NCBI GenBank assembly: GCA_016934715.1
Contig: JAFGSI010000012.1
Coordinates: 1 to 38,503, forward strand
Length of the DNA stretch: 38,503 bases
Reading direction: 5' to 3'
From: Anaerolineales bacterium
Lineage (GTDB): Bacteria > Chloroflexota > Anaerolineae > Anaerolineales > Villigracilaceae
In this document: piece by piece, positions 18,260 through 38,503 of the stretch
Layout: each line of letters starts with the position of its first letter
Position numbering within the stretch: the first letter of the stretch is position 1
The notes under the pieces: generated by a model
Databases searched by the model: none
Seen by the model: the letters and a program-made list of their open reading frames with translations, nothing else
Told to the model about the DNA's origin: nothing
Program-made: the position numbers and the translations under genes

Positions 18260-20611
18260 ATGACAGAGACAATCGGATCCATTCTCAAGCGAACCCGTGA
18301 GGCCCGCAACATCGCGATCGCAGATGTTGTTCGGGTCACCCGCATCCGCCCTCACTATATCGAGGCCCTGGAAGCAGACGATTTCGAGATCCTCCCTTCG
18401 ACGGCGCAGGCGCGTGGCTTCCTGCGCCTGTATGCCGAATTCCTTGGATATTCGCTCGACGAATTCTCCACCCTGACCGGGGGTGAGTCCGAGACGCCTG
18501 CCGCAGACGAGGAGCCTGACAGCAGCCTGTCTACTGCACCGGATGAGACCCCACAACAAGAGGTTCTCGAGCCCGGCTCGACAGCGGCAGGCGAGCCTGA
18601 AGTCACAGACGAACAGGCAGCTCCGCAATCCAAAAGCCCTATCCCGGTCGACGCGCCGCCAGGGCTCGAATCCTGGTACTCCCTGATCGCCGCCGAATCT
18701 GGACCCGAATCGGAACCACAATCGAACCTCCCGGAAATAGTCTGGCAGGAACCAATTAGCGAGCCTCCGCCCACGGCGGGGCCAACTCCCGTCGGCCGGG
18801 AAAGTGAAAAGAAGTCAGCCACTGGAACGTCCCCCACCCGAACCAGGGGAACCACCTCCGCGCCGGCCACAAAAGCTGCCGGCAAGAAGACCGCCACGAC
18901 CTCCAGGACCAAGGCTGCCTCCAGCGCTGAATCGAAGAAGACGCCGGCATCCAGCAGGCCGGCTGCGCCCAGGGCAAAGGCTGCCGGCAAGAAGACCGCC
19001 GCGACCTCCGGGACCAAGGCCGCCTCCAGCGCTGAATCGAAGAAGACGCCGGCGTCCAGCAGGCCGGCTGCGTCCAGGGCCCCTTCCAAAGTCAAGCCCG
19101 GGGCAAAGAAGGCCAGCCAGACCACCCCTGCGAGCACATCCAGGGCAAAGACTGCCGCGAAGCCGACCGCCGGTAAAAAGGCGACCACGATCCCTTCCCA
19201 AACCAAGGCCGCGACCAAGACCAGGGCTGAAACGAAGAAGACACCGGCCGCCGCCACAGCGAAAACCGCCGCGGCGACCACCGCAAGCAAGGCAGGCAAA
19301 GCCGCTTCCAAACCCACCCAACCAGCGGTCCACAAAAAAACGGTCGCGACCGGCACGCCGGAGCCAGCCAGGGCCAGAGCCACCTCCGCCAAAGCCCCCC
19401 CCGTCAGCCAGAGGCGGAAAACCGTTGAAAGAACCCCACCAACCCATGGCGAGCCACCTCCCGAAACGAAGATACCTCCCGGTCCGTTGGCCGTCGAGGC
19501 CCAGCCGGAGGCTATCCAGCCAACCATGGTCGAGACAGACATCCTCAGCATTCCGACAAGCCCCCCAATCGAGCTGGAACCCGGTCCCTCCACAGACGAT
19601 TCTGCTCCCGTTGAGGAGCCCGTCCTGGAGCAGAGCGGGCCTCCCCCGCCGCCCCCGGCTCAGATTTCAGCAGACATCTACACGGCCATAGGAGTAGAGC
19701 TTCGCCAGCGGCGGGAATTGCTCAGCCTGAACCTGGACGAAATCGAACGCCATACCCACGTTCGCCGGCAGCATCTCGAAGCCATCGAGGCCGGGGACTT
19801 CGACGGCCTGCCCTCGCCGGTGCAAACGCGCGGGATGCTCTACAACTACGCTGGATTCCTGGACCTGGACACGGATGTCATCCTGCTGCGCTTTGCCGAC
19901 GGCCTGCAACTGCAGCGCCTGGAACGCCAATCCAGTGAGCAAGGGAAGACCTCGCCGTCCCGCAAGAAACGCCGCTCAATCCTGCCACCTGCCATCCGGC
20001 GTTCCCTGTCGGCCGATTTGATCGTCTTCCTCCTGGTGGCAGGAATTCTCATCGCTTTTATCATCTGGGGGATATCTTCAGTATTCGCCCAACCGGCTGA
20101 ACCGACCTCGCAACCGCCTCCGATCTCGGATGTCTTGAGCACCACCCCGACCCCGCAAACAGCCGGGGAGGCCCTCCCGATCGAGGCCCCGGTCACCGCC
20201 ACCGCTGCCGTCCAGGAGGTCGCCGAGGCTCCCGAAGAGATCTTCCCGGCGGCTGTCGAGGGCAGCATCCAGATCGCGGTATTCGCAACCGAACGGACCT
20301 GGATGCGGGTTGTCGTAGATGGGGACGTGGCCTTCGAGGGGCGGACCACCGCCGGCGCCGTCTACGAATTCGCCGGGGGCCAGTTGATCGAGATCGTCAC
20401 CGGCAACGCGGCCGCCCTGAGGATCACCTACCAGGGCAACGACCTGGGCCCGCTGGGAGCCTTCGGTCAGGCGGTCGACCGGATCTACACCATCAGCGGG
20501 ATCCTCGAACCGACCTCTACGCCGGTCCCAACCCCGACGATCACCCCCACCCCCACCCGGACGCCGCGCCCGAGCGCGACCCCGCGCATCTCCCCCACCC
20601 CCCCGCCTTAA
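18260..20611 (+). CDS. RodZ-like double-HTH membrane protein with histone-H1-like linker
   Basis: A 783-residue protein. A RodZ-type HTH_25 domain (residues ~1-75: IGSILKRTREARNIAIADVV, RPHYIEALEADDFEILPS) is followed by an acidic/Pro linker, a ~200-residue Lys/Ala/Thr/Pro region (about 190-390) like bacterial histone-H1 tails (AAGKKTATTSRTKAA, ESKKTPASSRPAA), an acidic Pro-rich stretch, a second HTH_25 domain (~474-540), a basic stretch (SPSRKKRRSILPPAIRR), one membrane helix (~586-610) and an extracellular RodZ C-terminal-like domain (~660-745), ending in a Thr-Pro tail. RodZ links MreB to the wall machinery. The H1-like linker suggests possible DNA binding at the membrane; this is inference. 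No MreB gene is in view. Confidence 0.85.
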   Translation: MTETIGSILKRTREARNIAIADVVRVTRIRPHYIEALEADDFEILPSTAQARGFLRLYAEFLGYSLDEFSTLTGGESETPAADEEPDSSLSTAPDETPQQEVLEPGSTAAGEPEVTDEQAAPQSKSPIPVDAPPGLESWYSLIAAESGPESEPQSNLPEIVWQEPISEPPPTAGPTPVGRESEKKSATGTSPTRTRGTTSAPATKAAGKKTATTSRTKAASSAESKKTPASSRPAAPRAKAAGKKTAATSGTKAASSAESKKTPASSRPAASRAPSKVKPGAKKASQTTPASTSRAKTAAKPTAGKKATTIPSQTKAATKTRAETKKTPAAATAKTAAATTASKAGKAASKPTQPAVHKKTVATGTPEPARARATSAKAPPVSQRRKTVERTPPTHGEPPPETKIPPGPLAVEAQPEAIQPTMVETDILSIPTSPPIELEPGPSTDDSAPVEEPVLEQSGPPPPPPAQISADIYTAIGVELRQRRELLSLNLDEIERHTHVRRQHLEAIEAGDFDGLPSPVQTRGMLYNYAGFLDLDTDVILLRFADGLQLQRLERQSSEQGKTSPSRKKRRSILPPAIRRSLSADLIVFLLVAGILIAFIIWGISSVFAQPAEPTSQPPPISDVLSTTPTPQTAGEALPIEAPVTATAAVQEVAEAPEEIFPAAVEGSIQIAVFATERTWMRVVVDGDVAFEGRTTAGAVYEFAGGQLIEIVTGNAAALRITYQGNDLGPLGAFGQAVDRIYTISGILEPTSTPVPTPTITPTPTRTPRPSATPRISPTPPP
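18875..19084 (+). repeat. Two tandem 105-base coding repeats in the H1-like region
   Basis: Units 18875-18979 and 18980-19084 are nearly identical and in frame, each 35 residues long (AAGKKTA...ESKKTPASSRPAA). They show recent tandem duplication within the linker. Confidence 0.85.
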
Positions 20612-29883: not shown

Positions 29884-32034
29884 ATGCGCTGGCTCCAGAT
29901 GCTCAAACCGAACCCCGAACTTGACGACCTGATGCGCTCGACCACCCGCAACGTGGTCGGGACCGTGGCCGGGCTGTATGTGGCCTGGCACATCATCGCC
30001 ACCGTTGGTTACCCGGCCATCTTCAGCCCCACCATCTGGATCACTTCGCTGTGCATGTTGGGCCTGGTCTCACTGACCCTGCGCCTGAACGAAAAGTACT
30101 ACCTGCTTTCACAGAGCGTCTTCCTGGTCGGCCTGACCGCCGCGATCGTCATCACCTATGCCAACTTCCACTATCCAGCGATCCTGTTCATGCTGCCGCT
30201 CGTCCCGCTGATCGCCATCGTGACGATGGGCACCCCGGCCACGGTGGTCAGCGTCCTGGCCAACACCAGCATCATGCTCATCATCGCCCGCCTGGACGGC
30301 CTGTCCTCGCTGACCGTCACCGGGATTTCGCTGGCCAGCGTCTTCAGTGCTGTTTTCGGCCGGGGGGTTTCCACCAACCTGCTCACCGCCCTCAATGCTG
30401 CCTCCTACCACTACGGCGAAGCCCGCCGCCTGCTGGACGAGACCCGCAAGCACCGGGCCGAGATCAGCCGCATGCTCAAGGACCGCAACCAGGTGAATTA
30501 CCAGCTCGAACGGATGAACGAGATGCTGACCGTTGCCCGGGCCCAGGCTGACGAGGCCCGCGAGAATCGCAACCGCTTCATGCTCGCCGTCAGCCACGAA
30601 CTGCGCAGCCCGCTGAACTTCATCATCGGCTTCAGCGACCTGATGGTCAACGCCCCCGAGACCTATGCACCTCTCGATGGTTGGCCGACCGGCCTGTATG
30701 ACGATGTCCAGGAGATCTACACATCCAGCCGCCATCTGATGCGCCTGATCAACGACATCCTGGACATGGGTAAGATCGAGGCCGGGCAGGCTCCCCTCTA
30801 CCGGGAAAAAGCCGAGATCGACCAGGTGATCGAGGACGTGCGCACCATGCTGTCCAGCGCTTTCGAGCAGAAGGGCATCGCCCTGCACATCGATGTCCCC
30901 GCCAGCCTGCCGTCGATCTTCGTCGACACGACCCGCATCCGCCAGGTGCTGCTCAACCTGCTCAACAACGGGCTGCGCTTCACCGACCAGGGTCACGTCA
31001 ACCTGCGGGTCGAAAAACGCGCCCACGAGCTTTACATCAGCGTCCGGGACACCGGCACCGGCATCGCACCCGAGGACCTGCCCCAGGTGTTCAGCATGTT
31101 CCGCCAGGTGGGCGAGGAGAACTGGCGGCGCCGGGCGGGAACCGGGCTGGGCCTTTACATCAGCCGCCAGTTCATCGAACTGCACGGTGGCCAGATGGAT
31201 GTCGAGAGCACCTCCGGCGAGGGAACCTGCTTCTACTTCACCCTGCCGCTCAACTCGCCAATTCCCGACCTGCCGCAACTCAGGGAATCCCCGCGGCCAG
31301 CCGACAAAGACAATCGCCTGGTCCTGCTGGTCAGCCCCAGCCCGGACGATGGGCGAATCTTCCAGCACGAACTGGAAGGCTACACTCTGAAACTGCTGGC
31401 CGATGTCGAACAGGTCGCCAGCCAGACGGGCGACCTGTACCCGTGCGCCGTCCTGGTCGCCGCCGATGCCGGGGCCCTGCAGGCCGAGAAACTGCCCTAT
31501 GACCTGCCGGTGATCCGCTACAGCCTGCCCCACGCCGGCGGACACCCGGCCAATGTCCGCAGCCAACTGGTCAAGCCGGTGCCGCGCGAAACCCTGATGG
31601 AGGCCATCCACGCCCTCGGTGCCGACCGGCACCGCCTGATGGTGGTGGATGACGACCCGGCCATGGTCCGCTTCGTGGCCCAGTCGCTGCGGGCCGGCAA
31701 ATCTCCCGCCGAGTACACCCTCCTGACCGCCTTCGACGCCGCCCAGGCCACGGCCCTGCTCGAAGAACACCCGGTCGACGCCATCCTACTCGACCTGGAA
31801 CTACCCGATGTCAACGGCTGGGAGTGGCTGCGCCAGATCCAGGAAAATCCCCATTGGGCAGACATCCCGGTGATCATCATCTCAGCCCAGGACCTGCCAG
31901 AAATGAACTTCGTCCCTGGCACCAATGCCATGGAACTCGTCCTGCGCCGCTCGTTGCGGGTGCCCGAACTCAGCCGGATGGTCCGGGCAGTGCTCGAAAA
32001 CATTCAGCCGCAGTATCCGCAAGCGGCCCGTTGA
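29884..32034 (+). CDS. Membrane hybrid histidine kinase with two receiver regions
   Basis: A 716-residue sensor. Five to six hydrophobic segments (residues ~20-170) without a large extracellular domain are followed by a coiled coil (EARRLLDETRKHRAEISRML), then HisKA with the phospho-His (FMLAVSHELRSPLNFIIGF) and HATPase with N-box RIRQVLLNLLNNGLRF, G1 DTGTGIAPEDL and G2 GTGLGLYISRQF. A first receiver-like region (~475-575) lacks the phospho-Asp (VLVAADAGALQ), while the second (~580-705) is intact (LMVVDDDPAMVRF, AILLDLELPDVNGWE). It is co-transcribed with the preceding receiver protein, which may take its phosphate. The signal is unknown. Confidence 0.92.
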   Translation: MRWLQMLKPNPELDDLMRSTTRNVVGTVAGLYVAWHIIATVGYPAIFSPTIWITSLCMLGLVSLTLRLNEKYYLLSQSVFLVGLTAAIVITYANFHYPAILFMLPLVPLIAIVTMGTPATVVSVLANTSIMLIIARLDGLSSLTVTGISLASVFSAVFGRGVSTNLLTALNAASYHYGEARRLLDETRKHRAEISRMLKDRNQVNYQLERMNEMLTVARAQADEARENRNRFMLAVSHELRSPLNFIIGFSDLMVNAPETYAPLDGWPTGLYDDVQEIYTSSRHLMRLINDILDMGKIEAGQAPLYREKAEIDQVIEDVRTMLSSAFEQKGIALHIDVPASLPSIFVDTTRIRQVLLNLLNNGLRFTDQGHVNLRVEKRAHELYISVRDTGTGIAPEDLPQVFSMFRQVGEENWRRRAGTGLGLYISRQFIELHGGQMDVESTSGEGTCFYFTLPLNSPIPDLPQLRESPRPADKDNRLVLLVSPSPDDGRIFQHELEGYTLKLLADVEQVASQTGDLYPCAVLVAADAGALQAEKLPYDLPVIRYSLPHAGGHPANVRSQLVKPVPRETLMEAIHALGADRHRLMVVDDDPAMVRFVAQSLRAGKSPAEYTLLTAFDAAQATALLEEHPVDAILLDLELPDVNGWEWLRQIQENPHWADIPVIIISAQDLPEMNFVPGTNAMELVLRRSLRVPELSRMVRAVLENIQPQYPQAAR

Positions 32035-32112: not shown

Positions 32113-33636
32113 CTAAGCCAGCGGCCCGATCGCGGCTTCGACCGCGTTCAGGATCTCGCCCGAGCGAACCAGTTCCTTCATCGTGTTGTGGTCCGGGTAG
32201 AGCGGTCGATCAATGTCAAGGTGGGCAACATGCTGGCGAATCGCCGTGTGTGCCGCCCGGGTTCCCATGCCGGGGGTGAACTGGCGAAAATCGAGCGCCT
32301 GGGCGGCAGCCATGAACTCGATCCCCAGCACACCGCAGGCGTTCTCGAGGATCTGGCCGTTCTTGAGCGCCGTGTTCATGCCCATCGAGACGAAGTCCTC
32401 CTGATCGGCCGCCGCCGGGATCGACTGGATGCTGGCCGGGGCCGAGAGGATGCGCTGCTCGACGATCAGCATGTCGGCGGTGTACTGGCTGAGCATCAGG
32501 CCCGAGTAGAAACCCGGGTCGGGGGTCAGGAAGTCAGGCAGACCCTGGCTGAGAGCCGGGTTGGTCAGCCGGTTCATGCGCCGCTCGGACAGCACGCAGA
32601 CCATCGTCACGGCTGCCCCGGCCATGTCCATCGGCAGCGCGACCGGCGAACCCTGGAAGTTGGCTCCGGTGAGGGTCAACTTCATTTCAGGGATGAAGAT
32701 CGGGTTGTCACCAACGCCGTTGAGCTCGATTTCGACCTGCGAGCGGGCGTAGGCGATCGCGTCACGGGCTGCCCCGATGACCTGCGGCGTGGAACGCATC
32801 GAGTAGGCATCCTGGACCTTGGTCTTCATCTTGCCGGTGGTCAGATCGGAACCCGCAATGAGGTTGCGCAGGTTCTCGGCGCTGGCCATGGCGCCCCTGA
32901 AGCCGCGCAGTTCGTGCAATTTGGGGTTGTACGGTTTCAGGTTGCCCAGCAAGGCTTCGATCGACATCGCCGCGGCGATCTCGGCCTGTTTCAGCAAGCG
33001 CTCCATATCGTAGATGGCGATTGCGGACATGGCCGTCAGCAGGTTGGACCCGTTGATCACCGCCAGGCCATCGCGGGCTTGCAGCTTGGGGACCGGAATC
33101 CCCGCCCGCTTCATCGCCTCGGCCCCCGGCAACCGCTCTCCGTGATAGAACGCCTCGCCCTCTCCCATCAACAGCAAGGCGGCCTGGGCCATCGGCGCCA
33201 GGTCGCCGCAGGCACCCACCGAGCCCTTCTGACAGACGACCGGCGTGACGCCCTTGTTCAGCATCGCGACCAGTGTCAGGGTGATCTCCGGGCGGCAGCC
33301 CGAATTGCCGTGGGCGTGGACATTGATCCGCCCCGCCAGGGCCCCCCGCACGTGTTCGACCGGAGCCGGGTCACCGATGCCAGCGGCATGATTGTAGATG
33401 AGATATTTCTGGAAATCCTTGACCTGCTCGTCGGAGAGAATCTTCTCTGAGAACTCGCCGATGCCGGTGTTGGTGCCGTACATGATCTCCTTGGCGGCAA
33501 GCTTTTCCTCCAGCATCGCCCGGCAGATCTTGATCCGCTCCAGGGCAGCCGGGTCGAGGGTCACTTCCTCGCCCTGCCGGGCTATGGCGACCAGTTTTTC
33601 GATCGTGAGGCTGGATCCATCGAGGACAATCGTCAT
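32113..33636 (-). CDS. MIO-type aromatic amino acid ammonia-lyase, HutH-like
   Basis: Histidine ammonia-lyase superfamily, 507 residues (HutH length). Start ATG 33636 is chosen over ATG 33642 because AGGAG sits six bases upstream of it. With this start, Tyr53 (MYGTNTGIGEFS) and His83 (YNHAAGIG) fall at the numbers of the P. putida HutH active-site residues. The MIO cofactor triad, normally Ala-Ser-Gly, is Ala-Cys-Gly (GSVGACGDLAPM, Cys143, codon TGC at 33210-33208). Other family motifs are VINGSNLLTAM, VQDAYSMR and NPIF. Substrate-pocket segments differ from HutH: GANFQGSPVALPMD instead of the HutH-type GNFHAEP, and QEDFVSMG instead of QEDHVSM. Histidine is therefore not certain; a tyrosine/phenylalanine lyase or aminomutase is possible. 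No hut neighbours. Confidence 0.85.
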   Translation of the reverse strand: MTIVLDGSSLTIEKLVAIARQGEEVTLDPAALERIKICRAMLEEKLAAKEIMYGTNTGIGEFSEKILSDEQVKDFQKYLIYNHAAGIGDPAPVEHVRGALAGRINVHAHGNSGCRPEITLTLVAMLNKGVTPVVCQKGSVGACGDLAPMAQAALLLMGEGEAFYHGERLPGAEAMKRAGIPVPKLQARDGLAVINGSNLLTAMSAIAIYDMERLLKQAEIAAAMSIEALLGNLKPYNPKLHELRGFRGAMASAENLRNLIAGSDLTTGKMKTKVQDAYSMRSTPQVIGAARDAIAYARSQVEIELNGVGDNPIFIPEMKLTLTGANFQGSPVALPMDMAGAAVTMVCVLSERRMNRLTNPALSQGLPDFLTPDPGFYSGLMLSQYTADMLIVEQRILSAPASIQSIPAAADQEDFVSMGMNTALKNGQILENACGVLGIEFMAAAQALDFRQFTPGMGTRAAHTAIRQHVAHLDIDRPLYPDHNTMKELVRSGEILNAVEAAIGPLA

Positions 33637-33668
33637 GGGCATCTCCTAAGGGGAATTGGGATATCCTG

Positions 33669-35932: not shown

Positions 35933-38503
35933 CTAGTGCCTGCAGGAGTGATACCGGCGATCGCCGTGATAGGCCGAATGGGTCCAGTTGTGGCAGCCGT
36001 GATGGCAGCCGTGATGGCAGCCACTGCTTCCACTTCCACACACGCCTGCGCGGACAGAGGTGTTCCCGGAACTGTTGCTGGCGAACAGCGGATCGTCGCT
36101 GAGGGTCAACGCAGCGTTGACGACCTTGATCCCGTGCCCGTGATTGCCGGTAAAGGCACCGCTGATCACGTAGACCTCAATACAACCATCGCCGACCACG
36201 TAGACGCCATGCGAACCATTGTCAACTGCGCTCACGCTGGTCAGGGTCGCCACCCCGGCGGTCTTGGCCGAAAGGCCGAGGCTGCCGTTGTCCGCAAAGG
36301 TGCTGCCGGTGACATTCACATCGCCGACCGCGACCAGGGTTGCGCCGTTGCTCTTGTTTCCCGAGGCGGTCACTGCAAAGAGAGTGATCTGCTCCCCGGC
36401 GGTTGCGACGAGCCCGTTGCCCCTGGTGTTGTTGCTGAAAGAACCACCGTAGACACTGATCTCTCCCTGTGCGACCAGGGTGGCCCCTGCAACCGCATTG
36501 CCGTTGGCGACCACCTCGTAGAGGTCGATGTTGCCATCTGCATCGATGTTCAGGCCATATCCGGTGGCGGTGCAGCATCCGCAATGGGTGCAGACGCAGA
36601 CCTTATTGCCGGAGAAACTGCTGCTGGAGACCGAAACGTCCATCCCTGACTGGATATTCGCCCCGTACAGGTGGTTGTTGTCGGCGGTGACGTCGTACAG
36701 CGAGACAACCCCGTCGCTTTTGATCTGCAAACCGTAGCCAGTGGCGACCTTGTTGGACAGGGCAAAGCCATTTCCGCTGAAACTGCTCGCGCCCACCGTG
36801 ACCCCACCAGCCGCATCCAGGTTGGCCCCGAACAGGTGGTTCGCGTCGGCAACAACAGCATTCACGGAGGCATAGCCATCGGTTGTAACCTTCAGGCCAT
36901 ATCCGTATACGCTGGTCCCGCCGCAGGAGCTGCATGTCGTGGAACCGTTGCCCGAGAAACTGCTGCTGGAAATCGACACATCGGCAATCGCCACGATGTT
37001 GGCGCCGTAGAGGTTGTTGTCATTGGCGGTCACGTCGTACACAGAAACATAGCCACCGCTGTTGACCTGCAACCCGTACCCGTTGACATCTTTGGAGATG
37101 TGCGCCCCGTTGCCGTTGAACTCGCTGCTGGTGACCGATACGTTGCCATTGGCATTCAGGGAGGTGCCATAGAGGTTGTTCCCGTTGGCAACCACGCCAT
37201 AGACGTTGATGTTCGCGGCTGTCTCCACTTTCAATCCATAACCAAGGGCCTGGCAACTGCTGCAGTAAGTACAGACCGTCAGTGCGTTCCCGGAAAAACT
37301 ACTGTTGGAAACCGAGACATCCGCGGTCGTCAGAATGTAGGCACCGTAAAGGTGGTTGTTGTCGGCTGTGACATCATACAGCGAGACATATCCATCGCTC
37401 TTGATTTGCAGCCCGTAACCGGTGGCGACCTTGTTGGACAGGGCAAAGCCGTTGCTGCTGAAGCTGCTCGCGCCGACCGAGGCGCCGCTGTTTGTCTCCA
37501 GGTAGCTGCCATACAGGTTGTTGCTTTCAGCGGTGACCTCATACAGCGAGATGTAGCCTCCAGCGACGACCTTCAGGCCGTAACCGTAGACATGCAAGCC
37601 GCTGCAGTGACCACACGTGTAGCTGCCGTTGCCGGAGAAACTGCTGCTGGTCACGGCGAAGTCGCCGGTCACATCGATGGCAGCGCCGAAGACATTGTTG
37701 CCATCGGCAATGACATCATACAGGGTGACCGAGCCACCGCTCGCGACGTCCAGACCGCCGCCTGCGACGTGTCCATTCTGGCTGCTGCCGTTGTTGCTGA
37801 AGGAGCTGGCGTAGACCTCTACATTGCCTCCAGCGACGATTTCGGCCCCGGTCGTGGCATTGTTGTCAGCAGTGACACCATCCAGGACAACAGCACCACC
37901 CGCAGCGACGACCACTCCGGCAGCACTGTCGGTGAACATGCTGTCGGTGATGATCACATCCTGCGCGGAGCAGATCGTCAAGGCCACCTGGGCATCGACG
38001 CCGTCGATCATCAGGTTGTCGATGAAGATCGAGCCGAGCCAGGGGTTCGCTGTGGACCCAATGCTGATCGGGACGACGAATTGCGACAGGCTGTCATCGT
38101 CGACCTGGTGGGTGCCGGGATTCCAGCCGCCCTGAAGCGACAAATCGTAGTTGTTCAGCGAACCGAAAAGATAATCGTTGAAGTCGATGCTGGTCTCATC
38201 CCCGGCATAATCGCCTGTCTCAATATAGATCACGCCGGCCTGTTGATAGAGAACGTCATTTTCGTTCCCCTGAAGATAGGTCAGCAGGGCATCAAAACTG
38301 GCAAACGTGTCCGTGCATCCATTTTCACCAGGAATGGGCGGCTGGCCGGCCGGGCACCAGATCGGATCACCGTTGGCGATCACGTCGACCGCGTCCTGCC
38401 CTGCCAGGGGCAGGACCGCTCCGTGATCGTCCAGGGGCACGATCACGGTGTCGTCGGGCACCTGTTCCAGAAGGCCATCTGCCGGCTCCTCGGCGGGCAG
38501 GTC
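35933..38503 (-). CDS. Repetitive beta-helix surface protein, start outside window
   Basis: At least 856 residues; the frame is open to the window edge. After the segment IWCPAGQPPIPGENGCTDTF and a parallel beta-helix entry (LSLQGGWNPGTHQVDDDSLS) come about ten repeats of 47-59 residues built as VSSSSFSGNG...GYGLKV...YVSLYDVTADNNHLYGA. Repeats alternate: every second one (2, 4, 6, 8) is about four residues longer and carries a Cys cluster (TCGHCSG, CTYCSSC, TCSSCGG, CVCTHCGCC), while the others have none. The tail is rich in His and Cys (CHHGCHHGCHNW...YHSCRH). Secretion is expected but the signal peptide is out of view. It resembles right-handed beta-helix adhesins of Chloroflexota; metal binding is a hypothesis. 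Confidence 0.8.
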   Translation of the reverse strand, partial: DLPAEEPADGLLEQVPDDTVIVPLDDHGAVLPLAGQDAVDVIANGDPIWCPAGQPPIPGENGCTDTFASFDALLTYLQGNENDVLYQQAGVIYIETGDYAGDETSIDFNDYLFGSLNNYDLSLQGGWNPGTHQVDDDSLSQFVVPISIGSTANPWLGSIFIDNLMIDGVDAQVALTICSAQDVIITDSMFTDSAAGVVVAAGGAVVLDGVTADNNATTGAEIVAGGNVEVYASSFSNNGSSQNGHVAGGGLDVASGGSVTLYDVIADGNNVFGAAIDVTGDFAVTSSSFSGNGSYTCGHCSGLHVYGYGLKVVAGGYISLYEVTAESNNLYGSYLETNSGASVGASSFSSNGFALSNKVATGYGLQIKSDGYVSLYDVTADNNHLYGAYILTTADVSVSNSSFSGNALTVCTYCSSCQALGYGLKVETAANINVYGVVANGNNLYGTSLNANGNVSVTSSEFNGNGAHISKDVNGYGLQVNSGGYVSVYDVTANDNNLYGANIVAIADVSISSSSFSGNGSTTCSSCGGTSVYGYGLKVTTDGYASVNAVVADANHLFGANLDAAGGVTVGASSFSGNGFALSNKVATGYGLQIKSDGVVSLYDVTADNNHLYGANIQSGMDVSVSSSSFSGNKVCVCTHCGCCTATGYGLNIDADGNIDLYEVVANGNAVAGATLVAQGEISVYGGSFSNNTRGNGLVATAGEQITLFAVTASGNKSNGATLVAVGDVNVTGSTFADNGSLGLSAKTAGVATLTSVSAVDNGSHGVYVVGDGCIEVYVISGAFTGNHGHGIKVVNAALTLSDDPLFASNSSGNTSVRAGVCGSGSSGCHHGCHHGCHNWTHSAYHGDRRYHSCRH
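35991..36026 (-). repeat. Three 12-base tandem repeats encoding GCHH units
   Basis: TGGCAGCCGTGA at 35991-36002 and 36003-36014, and a third diverged copy from 36015. On the minus strand they encode the Gly-Cys-His-His units of the C-terminal tail. Confidence 0.85.
36640..37488 (-). repeat. Higher-order duplication in the beta-helix gene
   Basis: The segments 36640-36807 and 37322-37488 are nearly identical, including SNKVATGYGLQIKSDG and LYDVTADNNHLYGA. They lie about 684 bases (228 residues, four turns) apart, so the array has a four-repeat superunit on top of the two-repeat alternation. Confidence 0.75.

Follow-up and report, generated by a model that had tools for sequence, protein, structure and literature searches.

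Background

Chlamydial Pmps are autotransporters with a beta-barrel and contain beta-helix repeats, and the chlamydial outer-membrane complex is disulfide-linked. Cysteine-rich ice-binding proteins of insects and algae are solenoids with cysteines, and in the insect proteins the disulfides brace the coils from inside. According to the available part of one report, the Pmps are surface autotransporters that stand beside a cysteine-rich protein envelope, which is believed to be a substitute for peptidoglycan (PMC2811131). Awp1, Awp2 and Awp3b of Candida glabrata are right-handed beta-helix surface adhesins with exposed tyrosines, and the T1 loops of turns 4-6 in Awp3b are cross-linked by two disulfides, as given in the accessible sections of that study (PMC8746771). 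In this study, we analysed a protein predicted to be a right-handed beta-helix, which is encoded at positions 35933-38503 on the minus strand of a 38,503-nucleotide stretch (hereafter the window) of contig JAFGSI010000012.1, assembly GCA_016934715.1, from an Anaerolineales bacterium (Chloroflexota, family Villigracilaceae).

The window protein is like the Awp adhesins in being a predicted right-handed beta-helix, and in its putative place at the surface. The Awp proteins differ in that they are fungal and glycosylphosphatidylinositol-anchored, consist of nine turns and, in the parts described, have no four-coil comb of hairpins (PMC8746771). They are the nearest published counterpart that was found, by a resemblance in kind. 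With regard to the C-terminal barrel translocator of the Pmps, the window protein matched no autotransporter model from Pfam (E up to 1, the barrel being sought by Pfam alone), and its tail is predicted to be disordered. The coils of its array carry no cysteine, unlike the internally bonded coils of the insect ice-binding solenoids. Fold and coil motif are common to the window protein and the Pfam families Beta_helix (PF13229) and NosD (PF05048). In the available part of a study of the Chloroflexota envelope, Tad pili were described and no beta-helix was found (PMC13319060). A published treatment of the present family was not recognised in the open-access literature by titles and abstract openings, which is weak evidence of absence, and no Pfam or NCBIfam family was reported to cover its N-terminal domain or its loop alternation.

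We tentatively propose, at somewhat less than even confidence, that the protein is a secreted beta-helix rod of the envelope or of a Tad-pilus-like structure, and that its disulfide-locked hairpins would form a contact comb for adhesion or envelope cohesion.

Alternating cysteine loops in the window protein

The open reading frame encodes 856 amino acids plus a stop codon and runs off the contig end at 38503, so the N-terminus is lost. The initial annotation of this DNA described a beta-helix with cysteine clusters at about 37610, 37262, 36928 and 36583, and all four coordinates are right. The cysteine codons start at 37615 and 37606 in cluster 1 (residues 297 and 300), at 37273, 37264 and 37255 in cluster 2 (residues 411, 414 and 417), at 36934 and 36925 in cluster 3 (residues 524 and 527), and at 36598, 36592, 36583, 36577 and 36574 in cluster 4 (residues 636, 638, 641, 643 and 644). 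Equivalent cysteines at residues 300, 414, 527 and 641 are spaced by 114, 113 and 114 amino acids, that is, by 342, 339 and 342 bases, which agrees with the spacing of close to 342 bases first noted. The protein autocorrelation, calculated for lags of 15-129, exceeded 0.22 at three lags only: 113, 114 and, with a weaker signal, 59.

The array was segmented with a profile of the two-coil body, which gave 57-residue units separated by loops. Two types of loop alternate: A loops of 13 residues with cysteines, and Cys-free B loops of 8-9 residues. All 12 cysteines of residues 194-694 sit in four alternate loops that make up 52 of the 501 positions (naive probability 1.6e-12), and the segmentation thereby upholds the claim that the clusters recur at the same place in the repeat. 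Because each 57-residue unit consists of two coils plus a loop, the cysteine loops are four coils apart, and the period of "two turns" given in the initial annotation is too short by half. The canonical rise of a beta-helix is 4.8 Å per coil; if it holds here, successive clusters would lie about 19 Å apart along the axis.

The four A loops, all on the minus strand, are modelled as short hairpins by AlphaFold2. They are SYTCGHCSGLHVY (residues 294-306, 37586..37624, two cysteines, predicted strands 294-296 and 304-306), LTVCTYCSSCQAL (residues 408-420, 37244..37282, three cysteines, strands 408-411 and 417-420), STTCSSCGGTSVY (residues 521-533, 36905..36943, two cysteines, strands 521-525 and 529-533) and VCVCTHCGCCTAT (residues 635-647, 36563..36601, five cysteines, strands 635-638 and 644-647). 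The B loops, on the same strand, are SSQNGHVA ahead of hairpin 1 (residues 240-247, 37763..37786), AHISKDVN (residues 467-474, 37082..37105, strandless in the model) and FALSNKVAT, which occurs twice (residues 353-361, 37421..37447, with two-residue strands predicted at both ends; residues 580-588, 36740..36766, strandless). The intervening turns are thus Cys-free as proposed, and the version SNKVATGYG attributed to them is found in both FALSNKVAT loops but not in the third intervening loop, AHISKDVN.

Equivalent units of the array have a DNA identity of 0.57-0.69; units 3 and 7 share 44 of 59 residues, and at 23 of these shared residues the codons differ. A recent tandem duplication of DNA was ruled out because the DNA of the units has diverged and holds many synonymous changes.

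Predicted fold

The beta-helix itself is supported by several comparisons. Pfam Beta_helix (PF13229) matches with 70.5 bits against a cut-off of 25.9 (E 1.6e-19), and AlphaFold2, run with 13 aligned sequences, predicts a right-handed beta-helix with two coils per unit (mean predicted local distance difference test score (pLDDT) 87.7, predicted template modelling score (pTM) 0.82). In VIA comparisons the predicted model aligned with the AlgE6 A-module (Z 29.4, root-mean-square deviation (rmsd) 3.4, 313 aligned), the secreted adhesin EtpA (Z 28.1, rmsd 2.7, 424 aligned) and the NosD part of NosDFY (Z 26.0, rmsd 3.5, 288 aligned). The structural matches found by Foldseek and VIA, namely, phage tail or tailspike proteins, mannuronan epimerases, lyases, EtpA and NosD, are right-handed beta-helices. 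No solved homologue was found by sequence at E 0.001. For NosD (PF05048) the window protein scored 16.5 bits, below the cut-off of 23.6, while two relatives, homologue L059 (27.5) and a paralogue on contig C59 of the same genome (30.6), were above it; homologue L057 (19.5) was below.

As mannuronan epimerases, lyases and tailspikes are among the top structural matches, the protein might be a polysaccharide-active enzyme (lyase or epimerase) with a pectate-lyase-like fold. This is very improbable in our judgement: no Pfam enzyme family scored over its cut-off, no NCBIfam model matched, and the array size varies from 7 to 18 units among homologues, unlike a fixed active site.

The predicted hairpins recur in a homologue poor in cysteine, L054 (pLDDT 83.7, pTM 0.73), where five of six A loops and none of six B loops form one. 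Two of those five hairpin loops are Cys-free, so the hairpin does not need cysteine.

Homologues and conservation of the alternation

Matches were obtained in 48 of the 152 genomes of the window's family, the window genome included. The array was recognised in 15 of the 152, and 14 proteins were sufficiently complete for segmentation, among them the window protein, which itself lacks its N-terminus. Locus L052/L044 (G024), cut inside the gene, was left out of the loop counts, and L037 (G054) was included in the loop counts and kept out of the structure alignments. Array phase was assigned by loop length and not by cysteine, and loops of <5 or >45 residues were excluded from phase counts. A first scan of the genome contigs with the single window protein found nothing. 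The alignment of the N-terminal domain retrieved 29 loci, of which 13 carry at least five array units and 16 between zero and four; the titles of the named records among them read Anaerolineales, Anaerolineae, Anaerolinea, Leptolinea or Chloroflexi. In wider samples, the N-domain profile matched 13 of 396 genomes of the class and a 114-residue profile matched 7 of 400 genomes of the phylum (one gene each), all of them in the window's family.

The alternation is kept in the homologues. Cysteine was borne by 50 of 69 A loops and by 1 of 71 B loops. The 14 proteins have 100 array cysteines, all of which are in loops: the A loops hold 99, and the coils hold none. Loop length alternates without exception in 11 of the 14 arrays. 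Alternation is weak in L049, where two B loops have 19 and 15 residues and the last A loop has 8, and in L046 and L047, which are short with two A loops each. The coil bodies preceding the two loop types are themselves distinct, as the nearest neighbour in another genus shares the label in 116 of 140 cases; controls in which each protein had its phase flipped at random had a mean of 70.2 and a maximum of 110, and 0 of 500 reached 116. Because A and B coil bodies differ recognisably across genera, the four-coil unit is probably older than the genera. Units 8 and 10 of L037 have nearly identical A loops of 38-39 residues with Ser-rich linkers and 4-5 cysteines, which suggests a recent internal copy.

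The regular spacing of redox-capable residues speaks for an electron-transfer wire along the rod, which the initial annotation held to be conceivable. About 19 Å is too far for electron transfer without cofactors, as it is for disulfides between successive clusters; the latter were likewise judged unlikely on the four-coil spacing. The heme motif CxxCH was not present in any of the 14 proteins, the window protein being without its N-terminus, and homologues with few or no cysteines retain the architecture. Because of the four-coil spacing and the missing CxxCH, we regard a wire as scarcely credible.

Sequence features of the A loop

Cysteine content varies from loop to loop. The 69 A loops hold no cysteine in 19 cases, one in 20, two in 17, three in nine, four in two and five in two. 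The CxxC pairs foreseen initially are therefore borne out as regular clusters and not as uniform pairs, since the window loops hold 2, 3, 2 and 5 cysteines, the homologues 0-5, and 20 of the 50 Cys-bearing loops a solitary one. The A loop and its position are conserved, and CxxC is a local elaboration. Loop cysteine sites were kept at 12 of 15, 2 of 3, 4 of 4 and 10 of 12 positions in four pairs of relatives. For the genus-mates L036 and L038, the nonsynonymous (dN) and synonymous (dS) rates were 0.111 and 0.861 in A loops and similar in coils (0.115 and 0.938); by this measure the A loops are under purifying selection.

Thirty A loops are 13 residues long. Among them, Cys occupies position 7 in 21; Tyr is found at position 2 in 21 and at position 13 in 15; and the residue at position 4 is Tyr in 13 loops, Cys in seven and Phe in six. 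Solitary cysteines (n=20) occupy position 7 in 15 loops, position 6 in four and position 12 in one, and each of the 22 loops with a position-4 Cys holds at least one further Cys. By these counts, the tip cysteine can stand alone, and for a position-4 cysteine a potential partner is present in every such loop. The lone tip cysteines might zip neighbouring rods together by intermolecular disulfides or a shared metal into a covalent sheath or pilus bundle, with a density set by the number of Cys-bearing hairpins; we consider such a thiol comb unlikely.

A loops are richer in aromatics than B loops in 13 of the 14 proteins (exception, L037). Together with the tyrosines at positions 2 and 13 and the predicted hairpins that persist without cysteine in L054, this favours an adhesive or sugar-binding aromatic comb in which the hairpin with its Tyr-rich strands would be the conserved element and cysteines would be incidental stabilisers, gained and lost over time, and the available part of the Awp study offers a parallel in adhesins with exposed tyrosines and loop disulfides (PMC8746771). 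Such a role is doubtful given the near-complete restriction of array cysteines to A loops and the retention of most loop cysteine sites between relatives; the window protein itself is poor in aromatics in both loop types (0.08 of residues in A loops, 0.06 in B loops).

The CxxC tips also raise the question of metals. A hairpin-tip C-x-x-C followed by G or S resembles the knuckles of zinc ribbons and rubredoxin, and the tips could be half sites for Zn, Cu or Fe every 19 Å, with the other half supplied by an adjacent rod or by the protein's His/Cys-rich tail (residues 823-856, 35936..36037, minus strand). This tail contains a repeated CHHG, with nine His and four Cys within 34 residues, and is predicted to be disordered (pLDDT under 50). 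Because of the CxxC tips and the tail, a metal role is conceivable for the window protein, and the two CxxC in a single A loop of L040 and the NosD part of NosDFY among the fold matches point the same way. We nevertheless hold it to be rather improbable: CxxC is lost between the close relatives L036 and L038 while the loop stays, solitary cysteines are frequent, tail His/Cys content correlates weakly with cysteines per A loop (rho 0.50, p 0.066, n=14), and disulfide genes are present in the genome. Two overlapping CX3CH stretches were also seen in the window tail, and CX3CH is absent from all 13 homologues; most homologous tails end, by eye, in a short basic or aromatic stretch.

Genomic setting and domain layout

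By eye, the homologous frames open with a stretch resembling a signal peptide and a linker rich in Pro, Thr and Glu. Outside the window's genus, a Tad-like frame lies just upstream in 11 of 12 loci, and a lipoprotein-like frame of about 200 residues follows 30-183 bases downstream in all 11 loci that reach far enough, offsets being measured between stop-to-stop frames. Most of these neighbours were assigned by phmmer similarity to three frames, two with a Tad domain and one lipoprotein-like; PF13400 was tested and present in three neighbouring frames, and the lipobox was judged by eye. PF13400 (E up to 0.1) was not found in the beta-helix proteins of four homologues with intact N-termini; the N-terminus of the window protein is lost. 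In the window genome, VKOR and Thioredoxin_4 each exceed the cut-off at four places, and because of these VKOR and DsbA-like genes extracytoplasmic disulfides are expected.

At L058:3-5522, four consecutive Tad-like frames stand upstream of the array gene, one with a C-terminal DUF7305 match that is weak and below the cut-off. On contig C59 of the window's own genome (L006:4786-10691), two N-domain paralogues flank a gene for a lipoprotein-like homologue, the product of which is 43% identical over 159 residues to the lipoprotein-like protein of other genera.

Within the window's genus, two loci have a gene for an aromatic amino acid lyase 93 and 193 bases behind the array gene; in the window, the PF00221 lyase lies 2291 bases downstream, past one MFS and one ArsR-type gene. 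This lyase and a hybrid histidine kinase occur near the beta-helix gene in the genus (window 32113-33642 and 29884-32034; L059, L056). Elsewhere in the window, at 18260-20611, a RodZ-like protein (HTH_25 and RodZ_C) has a Lys/Ala/Ser/Thr-rich linker with two copies of a 105-base repeat (18870-19080, 94 % match). A phage origin was rejected, as a tblastn search of 50,697 phage records found nothing at E 1e-5, and so was a defence system, as no PADLOC family matched.

Within the frame, on the minus strand, the N-terminal domain was delimited by alignment (residues 46-179, 37967..38368), and its W49-C50-P51 and C63 are invariant in 13 of 13 aligned sequences. The predicted right-handed parallel beta-helix, which includes the array of 57-residue units, extends over residues about 183-820 (36044..37957) by Pfam, AlphaFold2 and segmentation. 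A C-terminal cap with C774 and C822 was recognised by alignment at 36038..36184; C822 is nearly invariant across the alignment, and homologues have, by eye, a Cys near C774.

Discussion

In the proposal put forward here, the rod would be a right-handed beta-helix that is secreted and belongs either to the cell envelope or to a Tad-pilus-like appendage; in relatives it may be tied to a Tad-like appendage or to a lipoprotein anchor. A longer loop, mostly a hairpin, would project at the same place on every fourth coil, at intervals of about 19 Å, with short and Cys-free loops between. These long loops would be the working surface; they are mostly predicted Tyr-rich hairpins whatever their cysteine content, and most have a cysteine at or close to the tip. 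Such cysteines would most likely be disulfide-bonded in an oxidising extracytoplasmic space: a second cysteine in the hairpin could close an intra-hairpin disulfide, and a lone one could bond with a neighbouring rod or a partner. The outcome would be a covalently locked and evenly spaced comb of contacts, serving adhesion or envelope cohesion.

Several observations weigh against this proposal. Cysteine number is odd in 31 of the 50 Cys-bearing A loops, which is unlike the prediction of purely intra-hairpin disulfides, and because 19 of 69 A loops have no cysteine, cysteines cannot be essential to the comb. The contrast between loop types is imperfect in the models, in that among the four window B loops SSQNGHVA is a tight hairpin (strands 240-242 and 245-247) and one more has the two-residue end strands, and one of six A loops in L054 is not a hairpin. 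Model confidence within the array is also lowest in the A and B loops (67-79 in ten-residue blocks for the hairpins), and AlphaFold2 over-predicts beta-solenoids for perfect repeats, according to the available part of one report (PMC11795689). This last concern is lessened, as the window repeats have diverged and the Pfam match is independent. Finally, neither a Tad nor a lipoprotein neighbour was found in the window's genus (0 of 2 loci with both sides present).

Conclusions

Many surface proteins of uncultured Chloroflexota are without a known role. The conserved rod, the alternating comb of long loops and the lineage-tuned cysteines described here provide a testable model of covalent cross-linking at a fixed extracellular spacing, and the predicted hairpin-comb rod would be a natural template for beta-solenoid materials with evenly spaced thiols.

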